From Pandoraea communis (GTDB taxonomy: Bacteria > Pseudomonadota > Gammaproteobacteria > Burkholderiales > Burkholderiaceae), in NCBI RefSeq assembly GCF_902459745.1, contig NZ_CABPSJ010000005.1, forward strand, positions 370,209-434,208: DNA of 64,000 bases, read 5' to 3'. Made by a program: the position numbers and the translations under genes. Under the pieces are notes generated by a model, which saw nothing but the letters and a program-made list of their open reading frames with translations, had not been told where the DNA came from and ran no database searches. Every line of letters starts with the position of its first letter. Within the stretch, counting starts at the first letter, position 1. Positions 32,026 through 34,672 of the stretch are shown here, in pieces.

Positions 32026-32208
32026 ATGAAGGGTCAAATGGGAACCACGAAGGCAGTGACCGAACTTGATGTGCTGTCCTCGGTGGACGCCACCCATGCT
32101 ATGCGCGGTGTTCCTGGCAATGGCGCTGGTGGCATCGCGGTCCCGCCGCGCAGTTTCTCGCCGATTTGTATTCCGCCGTTGCCGGTGGCCACTGGGGGTA
32201 ACGCCTGA
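32026..32208 (+). CDS. candidate RiPP precursor peptide (lasso-like cassette)
   Basis: 60 residues. ATG 32026 has a good AAAGGAA site 6-7 bases upstream, the gene directly precedes two lasso-biosynthesis-like genes, and the next start (32210) follows its stop by one base, so translation is coupled. The N-terminal half (TKAVTELDVLSSVDATHAM) looks like a leader: acidic, with Thr in the -2-like position of ATH, as in proteobacterial lasso precursors. The C-terminal half (GVPGNGAGGIAVPPRS, then FSPICIPPLPVATGG) is rich in Gly, Pro and hydrophobic residues, with one Cys and no Asp or Glu, so a normal lasso ring cannot form. Confidence 0.55.
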   Translation: MKGQMGTTKAVTELDVLSSVDATHAMRGVPGNGAGGIAVPPRSFSPICIPPLPVATGGNA

Positions 32209-32209
32209 G

Positions 32210-32503
32210 GTGACGGATTCGATGCGAATCGGAGCCAACTCGTGTGCGAACGCGCTGGTTTTCCGTCATCTGGCGCTCGATGTGCACGTCGTGGGTATCG
32301 ATGGGCATATGGTGGTGCACAAGCTCTCCCGCGATCGCCACTTGAATCTCTCATACGACCATTCACAAGCGCTACGCCGTTTGATCGGCGTTCAGCGTCA
32401 GCCGTTTTACGCCAACGCGTGGGCCGTGGCGCAGGGACACATCGTCGGTGACGATCCGCCGCGCCGAGAGCAACTCGCCGTGATCTTCGAGACACCCGCC
32501 TGA
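32210..32503 (+). CDS. short lasso B-like (transglutaminase-fold protease) protein, possibly defective
   Basis: 97 residues from GTG 32210, one base after the precursor stop; the frame is also open upstream to 32066 but there it overlaps the precursor. The C-terminal part LRRLIGVQRQPFYANAWAVA, then GHIVGDDP (about 56-83), matches the end of lasso B2/transglutaminase-like proteases (family pattern: IGV-x-PF-x-AHAWV-x-x-G-x-V-x-D). The catalytic His position is Asn69. Normal B proteins are longer; the N-terminal half here (HVVGIDGHMVVHKLSRDRHL) looks more like a PqqD-type B1 recognition part, so an internal deletion may have removed the Cys region. C12 is the only cysteine. Confidence 0.5.
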   Translation: MTDSMRIGANSCANALVFRHLALDVHVVGIDGHMVVHKLSRDRHLNLSYDHSQALRRLIGVQRQPFYANAWAVAQGHIVGDDPPRREQLAVIFETPA

Positions 32504-32568
32504 GCCGAGGTGGAGCGCGGTGAGCCGCGGCAAGTTGGCGTTACGACTCAATTCAAACGGAGCCCGCA

Positions 32569-34347
32569 ATGAGAATTGCCCGCCTGAGACCTGGGCCGGC
32601 CGAGCGGCACGTGCCGTTGCCCGGAGCCGTCGTACTGCGTGCCCTGGATGGCCAGCCCGCAGCCCGCATTTGTCCTGAACCGAGCGGTGAGCGCCAGCAC
32701 ACGAGTGGCCAGAGCGAGTTGCTGGCCTGGTATGTGAGCGGCCACGTGTTCCGCAAGGAGGATGGTCAGGAAGTGGCGCCGGGGCTCGAACTGGCCCGCA
32801 CGGCGATCGAATCGCCGGAGCGTTTCGTCGAGCAGTTCTGGGGGCATTACCGGGTCATCGTGCACGACCGCTGGTGCGCGACGACGCTCGTTCTGTGCGA
32901 CCCATGTGGCCACTGTCCGACGTATTACCGCTTTTGCCGAGACGGGGCGGTGCATGTCGCCGCGAACCCGGCTTCGATTGCCGACGCCCGCCCGGCGTTC
33001 AATAGCGACGCACTCAAGTCCTTTCTCGTTCATGGCGACATTGGTGGCGTGCAGTGTGCGCTGCACGACGTGGAACGTCTGCCGCTGGGACATGCGCTGT
33101 GGATTCCCGAGCGCGGCGCGCCGAAGACCCGTGTCGTGTGGTGGCCGTCGTGGCAACAGCGCGGCGACGCGAATGGGGCCGGCGAAGTGGCGTCTGGCGA
33201 GGGGGTGCTGGGACTGTTGCGCCGATCGGCAGAGCGGTGCCTCGGAGACAAGCCCGCCGTGCTTGAGCTGTCGGGCGGCGTCGAGTCGACATCGCTCGCA
33301 TTGGCGCTTGCCGAGTCGGGGCGTGCCGGCAACTGCACTGCGGTGAATCATCGTGATCCGGCATTGCCATCGAGCGACAGGTCGCATCATGCGGACAACG
33401 TCGCGCGGCATGTGCGTATGGCGTTCGAGCGTTTCGATATCGAACATGGCGCGTTTTCTCCGCCTGCGACGATCCCGCGTCTGGCGCGTCCTGCGCTGCA
33501 TGTGTGCATGCTCGCGCAGCTCGACGCCCTGCGCGAACGGCTGACGTCTTACCGCGACCACCGGCTCGTCAACGGGCATGGCGGCAACGCCATCTTCCTC
33601 GCCTCGCCACCTGATGGCGCGCTTCTCGATGCTTTTGCCGACGGTCAGTGGCGGCGAGGATTCGGTGCGTGGCGAGATCTGGCGGTGATGCAGCGCTTGC
33701 CGCTATGGTGGGTGTTGCAGCGCGCCTTCGTGCAGTTGCGGCAGTGTCACGCCGATCCCCTGGCGGCACAGGCGAGCGATCTGCTTACGGCAGCGGCCTG
33801 CGATGGTCTGGCCGAGGGCACTGAGCCGCTCGCTCAGGCGTGGCTCGCGCAATGGCCGCTTCGGATACGCCCAGGCAAGCGCGTGCAGATTCTGCGCACG
33901 CTGGGTAACCTTCGCGACATCGAGGTGCACCCGTCGCTGGCTGCGAGCGGCACGGTGTTTCCGTTCCTGACGCAGCCGGTCATCGAAGCGGGTTTCGCCA
34001 TGCCGACGTACCGCCTTTTCAATGCGATCTACAACCGGCTGCCGTTGCGCCGCGCGGCCTATCTTGCAAGCGGCCTGCCGAATCTCTGGCAGCGCGACAA
34101 GGGGATGACGACGGGCATCGTGGAGGCGGGCGTGGCGGCCAACCTCCAGCATGTGGAAGAGGTGTGTCTGGAGGGCTACTGTGCGGCGTCGGGATGGATC
34201 GACCGCGACGCATGCCGGCGGGCCATCGGCCGCATTGCGCATCACCATCTCGAATCGACGGCGACGATCCGGCGCTTGTATGCCGTAGAGATGTTCGTGC
34301 GCGGCTGGCGGGAGGATGCAGGCCAGCATCGGGCGGCACCGGCATGA
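32569..34347 (+). CDS. asparagine synthetase-like lasso peptide cyclase (C protein) homologue
   Basis: 592 residues, full length for lasso C proteins; GGAG precedes ATG 32569. The N-terminal half is an AsnB-like Ntn fold without the glutaminase Cys2 (EQFWGHYRVIVHD; DPCGHCPTYYRF; AANPAS). The C-terminal synthetase half has LELSGGVESTSLALAL (235-240 SGGVES, normally SGGxDS), NGHGGNAIFLASPP (335-348, normally GHGGD), FPFLTQPVIEAGFAMPTYRL and LPNLWQRDKGMTTG. It would adenylate a carboxylate and form an amide in a precursor peptide. Two ATP-site Asp are replaced (E239, N340), so activity is uncertain. Confidence 0.75.
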   Translation: MRIARLRPGPAERHVPLPGAVVLRALDGQPAARICPEPSGERQHTSGQSELLAWYVSGHVFRKEDGQEVAPGLELARTAIESPERFVEQFWGHYRVIVHDRWCATTLVLCDPCGHCPTYYRFCRDGAVHVAANPASIADARPAFNSDALKSFLVHGDIGGVQCALHDVERLPLGHALWIPERGAPKTRVVWWPSWQQRGDANGAGEVASGEGVLGLLRRSAERCLGDKPAVLELSGGVESTSLALALAESGRAGNCTAVNHRDPALPSSDRSHHADNVARHVRMAFERFDIEHGAFSPPATIPRLARPALHVCMLAQLDALRERLTSYRDHRLVNGHGGNAIFLASPPDGALLDAFADGQWRRGFGAWRDLAVMQRLPLWWVLQRAFVQLRQCHADPLAAQASDLLTAAACDGLAEGTEPLAQAWLAQWPLRIRPGKRVQILRTLGNLRDIEVHPSLAASGTVFPFLTQPVIEAGFAMPTYRLFNAIYNRLPLRRAAYLASGLPNLWQRDKGMTTGIVEAGVAANLQHVEEVCLEGYCAASGWIDRDACRRAIGRIAHHHLESTATIRRLYAVEMFVRGWREDAGQHRAAPA

Positions 34348-34672
34348 CGTGTCGGACGGGCAGGCCGACAACACAACAACGCGGCAACATCGCCGACCCG
34401 GCCTGACGCCATGTCCGTGTAATCCCCTAGGGTTTCGCGGGCAGGGCGAGGTCGCCCGGTAAGCCTTCCGTAAGCGTCAACGCGCACACTGAACGCGAGG
34501 CACGTCACCCGTGCCTGACGATTTCATTGCACCGAAACGCATTGCCGTTCGATGGCGATGCGCGACCGACTCCGCCGGCCCGATCCGGCGCCGCGCCAGC
34601 TCCGTTTCGCCCCGGCACCGCCGGTATGGCATGACGGGCGCGCGAGCCAATTCATATATGCAAGGAGACAAT
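34348..34672. other. intergenic region upstream of prpE
   Basis: About 325 bases. It contains short hairpins GGGCG/CGCCC (34444-34457) and AGGCACG/CGTGCCT (34498-34516). An upstream in-frame extension of prpE (from 34511) is open but lacks the conserved PrpE start. No transporter or further RiPP gene is present. Confidence 0.45.

Follow-up and report, generated by a model that had tools for sequence, protein, structure and literature searches.

A probably degenerating orthologue of the pandonodin lasso peptide cluster in Pandoraea communis

Introduction

Pandonodin, according to the excerpts of the papers cited here, is a 33-residue class IV lasso peptide (PMC13352647) whose source is Pandoraea norimbergensis and which is made by panABCD (PMC7549694); a further pandonodin source is PMC9266682. 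In this pathway PanB takes off the leader, PanC forms the isopeptide bond, and PanD is an ABC transporter (PMC13003496, likewise an excerpt). Among titles and abstract openings on pandonodin, Pandoraea lasso peptides, lasso cyclases and cluster decay, we found no decayed pandonodin cluster.

Here we analyse a stretch of 64,000 nucleotides from Pandoraea communis (henceforth the window). A sequence-only reading had described in it an atypical lasso-like RiPP cassette with a candidate core that contains no Asp or Glu, and had proposed that the cassette either makes a different bond, for example by head-to-tail closure or C-terminal amide formation, or is decaying. We find that the cassette is very probably (about 0.93) a degenerating orthologue of panABCD, and represents a known cluster in an ordinary, decayed form.

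Results

Inspection of the window confirmed three ORFs, of 60 aa (32026-32208), 97 aa (32210-32503) and 592 aa (32569-34347). The good ribosome site claimed for the smallest is present as AAGGA upstream of its ATG. The short lasso-B-like gene said to be coupled to the precursor begins with GTG one base past the A stop, and the third ORF is indeed a full-length lasso-C-like gene with an Asn_synthase match above the cut-off (29.8 vs 21 bits). Judged from sequence comparison, the three ORFs are the remains of panABCD, the pandonodin lasso peptide cluster, in a Pandoraea genome, and we assign the following features:

panA remnant: 32026..32208, + strand, 60-aa precursor ORF with core residues 28-60 (bases 32107-32205)
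panB pseudogene: 32210..32503, + strand, ATG lost, internal deletion, His to Asn
panC: 32569..34347, + strand, full-length 592-aa lasso cyclase / asparagine-synthetase-like ORF
panD stub: 34344..34406, + strand, recognised by comparison with L032 and L034

Searching 32 genomes of the genus with C, the genome of the window included, we found panC in 16 and no C in the other 16; the set was itself found by searching with C, so survivors of C are favoured. The named loci found with C all belonged to Pandoraea (9/9). Ten of the 16 C-holding genomes are intact, with a 60-aa A, a 253-aa B, C and the ABC exporter D, five are without a working D, and one carries a frameshifted C and a B without its ATG:

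Intact, genome (locus): G001 (L035), G006 (L045), G009 (L042), G010 (L044), G016 (L039), G022 (L032), G024 (L038), G027 (L043), G030 (L034), G031 (L036)
Window (G000): damaged, no working D
P. horticolens (G005, L031): damaged, no working D
P. bronchicola (G008, L058): no working D, no B
P. anapnoica (G013, L037): D only in pieces; A without its leader end and with little of its core; B open
G007 (L041): no working D, neither A nor B
G020 (L046): B ATG lost, C frameshifted, D kept

The window features are not due to chance, since relatives of C occur in 16 of the 32 genomes and the intact ones share the gene order. When the core of an intact relative was compared with PDB sequences, the one match was pandonodin (6q1x_A, 33/33 residues aligned, E 1.5e-18). 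The cores of G009, G027 and the main copy of G010 are letter-identical to pandonodin, those of the other intact genomes are close variants, and the intact relatives have Glu8 and Cys16/Cys21. This match, together with the published panABCD cluster, means that the family was already known. In the intact relatives, the precursor is A, its leader is taken off by B, the isopeptide ring is closed by C, judging from position between Gly1 and Glu8, and export is the task of D.

Two further sets of loci came to light. G010 holds a second, distant copy at another site (L047, G010:C37:627264-638003), with a C 54% identical to that of the window and a 242-aa B; at this locus no A was picked up by the ORF filter, and the only D-like match is short, weak and near the locus end. 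In other genera of the family, the B-C loci L053, L054 and L055 follow two to three tandem short ORFs with near-identical ends (e.g. GGSGQYREAGVGRFL) and are probably multi-precursor lasso clusters.

The window precursor is still open over 60 codons, and the absence of Asp and Glu after DATH that had drawn attention to it is confirmed. Its core had been taken as the roughly 36 residues after DATH; comparison with pandonodin instead places the core start at Gly28 (base 32107), giving 33 residues. None of these is Asp or Glu, including at core positions 7-9, where a lasso peptide requires one. Relative to the intact relatives, Glu8 and Asp6 have both become Gly, Cys16 has become Ser, and Thr at leader position -2 has become Met. 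Core position 8 is Asp or Glu in 12 of the 13 precursors compared, with the window (Gly8) as the sole exception, and it is Glu in all ten relatives with an intact cluster. Position -2, where we take Thr to be important in lasso peptides, is Met in the window and P. horticolens and Thr in the other 11 of 13. With Ser16, only Cys21 is left of the Cys16/Cys21 pair that forms the class IV tail disulfide. The P. horticolens precursor retains Asp8 and shares Ser16 and Met(-2) with the window.

The protease gene is more heavily damaged. Its product would have 97 aa, compared with 253 aa in intact B, and the native ATG, which overlaps the panA end in intact relatives, reads ACG. Measured on the 253-aa B, 153 codons (459 bases) are missing through an in-frame deletion at an 8-base repeat (32382-32389), of which P. 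horticolens still has both copies. This deletion takes out the region of what is presumably the catalytic Cys, and the residue that we take to be the active-site His has become Asn (32414-32416), leaving the window without a complete B protease carrying Cys and His. Lasso B2 models align with the window ORF at their C-terminal end only and score below cut-off (PF13471, 22.4 vs 26 bits; NF033537, 22.0 vs 33 bits), and intact P. commovens B passes NF033537 (63.6 vs 33 bits). In P. horticolens the B start is also lost, and the gene has its own separate deletion with a frameshift and a His to Arg change. The window B sequence matched 14 of the 32 genomes, all of which also hold C. A second B acting in trans was rejected from searches of the genome of the window: an intact-B search (E up to 1) returned only the two window fragments, and PF13471 had no match over its cut-off of 26, with one weak match elsewhere (21.4 bits).

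That no ABC exporter adjoins C also holds, and the comparison supplies a reason. D directly follows C in the ten intact relatives and in G020, so that it is kept in 11 of the 16 genomes with C (match over residues 1-589 of 610). The window has only a 63-base stub, with a start that overlaps the C stop and is joined in frame to the last exporter codons, about 600 codons of panD being deleted. The lack of an exporter reflects a deletion. The D deletion, the B start loss, the Cys16 and Thr(-2) changes and GGN (see below) recur in the separate P. horticolens record, and the B deletion is in frame and at a repeat; although the genome is a draft of 17 contigs, it is extremely improbable that the cluster works and that faulty sequencing or assembly produced the lesions.

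The cyclase gene is full length. Window C scores below cut-off with the macrolactam cyclase model NF033561 (74.4 vs 300 bits), and both it and intact P. commovens C are below cut-off for NF033561 and NF033535; given its Asn_synthase match, the ORF is an asparagine-synthetase-like putative C cyclase. Its GGD motif reads GGN (Asn340, 33586-33588), as it does in P. horticolens only, and the remaining 14 of the 16 C proteins in the alignment have GGD; a motif scan of 10 more distant C relatives found GGD in seven and no pattern match in the other three. Of the five genomes that lack a working D, four have changed residues in the motifs that we take to form the ATP site: the window and P. horticolens read GGN, P. 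anapnoica SGDVAS and G007 SGDVES. A search of the genome of the window (E up to 0.001) found no second C, and no solved PDB relative of C was found by single sequence (E up to 1) or profile (E up to 0.01). In G007, the deletion of A and B has brought the A ribosome-site region to about 27 bases before C, so that C may still be expressed.

We compared evolutionary rates with a codon model (F3x4, one omega per branch class) using a single implementation of our own in Python. The tree was built from C, and support is weak at some of its nodes (61 and 74 within the P. commovens group, 76 and 85 close to the window); the G009-G010-G006-G027 group, with 47-51, was handled as a polytomy, the second distant G010 copy served as outgroup for the tree only, and G020 was excluded from rate tests for its frameshifted C. 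On the window and P. horticolens tips, the B fragments have an omega of 0.67 vs 0.085 in the background (p 3.9e-6), and omega 1 was not rejected (p 0.36), in a test of 13 of 15 taxa (L058 and L041 lack B) restricted to the 96 codons that remain in the window. These fragments evolve neutrally or near-neutrally. C on the same tips has an omega of 0.13 vs 0.075 (p 0.024), with a range of roughly 0.08 to 0.20 (log-likelihood lower by 2.07 at 0.08 and by 1.81 at 0.20), and omega 1 is rejected (p 1.7e-20): C in this pair is relaxed yet still constrained by purifying selection. Over the six broken-cassette branches C has an omega of 0.147 vs 0.060 (p 8.9e-14), where the branches beyond the two tips cover periods both before and after the damage. 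The flanking genes show no rate change in either test, two tips or broken-cassette branches; mltD is at 0.030 and prpE at 0.021 (p 0.39 and 0.80 against background), prpE being tested in 14 of 15 taxa (L039 missing), cut by locus ends in three, over 603 codons. Since both evolve at the background rate, the rate effect is confined to the cassette.

The rates of A, like those of B, fit decay: its omega is raised to 0.56 vs 0.17 over broken-cassette branches with the same mixture of times (p 0.0006), and on the two tips its value of 0.43 is told neither from background (p 0.26) nor from 1 (p 0.065), in 13 of 15 taxa (L037 and L041 lack the A core). 

These data bear on whether a functional cassette makes a non-isopeptide RiPP, a head-to-tail ring or C-terminal amide, from an Asp/Glu-free core. 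An open A with its ribosome site and an intact, constrained C are what such a product would call for. However, B has neither its start ATG nor its His, is largely deleted and evolves neutrally, and D is deleted; the sister species combines Asp8 with a differently broken B, so that no shared new product is seen; and the Asp/Glu-free core is a property of the window and not of the family. We consider this reading very improbable. We reject a new bond type given the broken B and D and the lost core residues, and the proposal of a different bond finds no support, in view of a truncated protease, the loss of conserved core residues and ten intact relatives with an ordinary lasso Glu8. We read the lack of an acidic residue as most likely due to a mutation of the ring acceptor in the course of decay, and not as a clue to a new bond.

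A second question is whether C persists as an orphan enzyme or other protein that serves some purpose besides lasso synthesis, selection having kept the cyclase in several Pandoraea lineages after the protease and exporter died and the precursor degraded, with its motifs altered in most. C is an open frame in all five genomes without a working D (window, L031, L058, L037 and L041). On the same two tips its omega of 0.13 stands against 0.67 for the B fragments, and differing codons number 28 nonsynonymous and 60 synonymous in C vs 16 and 7 in the B fragments; in G007, which has neither A nor B, the A ribosome-site region lies just before C. Against this, the broken-cassette branches show a raised omega for C, its ATP-site motifs are changed in four of five D-less genomes, G020 has D but a frameshifted C, the 16 genomes without C show that the genus does not need it, and the C-based search favours survivors. 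We regard such retention as unlikely, though less so than a new bond type. If true, it would make C a repurposed orphan cyclase with a substrate still to be found, or a protein with a non-catalytic role.

We also examined the site in genomes without C. The prpE side was fetched in 11 of the 16, and the mltD-prpE interval was readable in ten (in G019, mltD is absent from the fetched piece). In this interval G017 (L095) retains the A promoter region and leader scraps, and G018 (L104) a 38-base piece of C; because these scraps sit at the same site, the cassette was lost in both. G011 has a 25-base match near the A ribosome site, and the other seven have only the pre-prpE stretch also found in intact genomes. 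From these remnants, the cluster seems to predate part of the genus at the least and to have been lost more than once; a gain in part of the genus, instead of greater age and loss, is conceivable.

Discussion

What we observe are the lesions, their sharing between species, the homology and the rates. Decay, one half of the sequence-only reading, is supported by the damage to A, B and D, the motif change in C and the near-neutral B fragments. Some findings sit less easily with plain decay: C is intact and constrained on the very tips where B is neutral, the A ORF is open, and its omega there fits either the background or neutrality. Under decay, the common ancestor of the window and P. horticolens would have lost the exporter by deletion and the B start, changed Thr(-2) and Cys16 of the precursor, and exchanged GGD for GGN in C; most of B, and the ring acceptor at A position 8, would have gone later in the window lineage. 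We infer this order from the lesions, with the shared ones probably older than the split, and would expect no pandonodin-like product to be made.

With this analysis a false lead towards a new RiPP bond can be set aside, and the locus offers a clear example of a natural-product cluster damaged repeatedly within one genus. The intact relatives represent ten natural variants of the pandonodin cluster, and a neutral protease gene next to a constrained cyclase gene in one broken operon is a testable oddity.

The closest relative found is P. horticolens LMG 31112 (L031), with a C 95% identical to that of the window. The two share the D deletion, the B start loss, Cys16Ser, Thr(-2)Met and the GGD to GGN change, and these common lesions therefore most simply predate their split. 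They differ in that P. horticolens has an Asp8 core and a B broken by another deletion, with a frameshift and His to Arg. Compared with the pandonodin cluster panABCD of P. norimbergensis, the window has orthologous A, B and C in the same order, and its 33-residue core layout and leader (VDATHATR followed by G) are those of the pandonodin-like relatives. Unlike that cluster, it is without Glu8, Cys16, Thr(-2), most of B and nearly all of D, and its C motif is altered.
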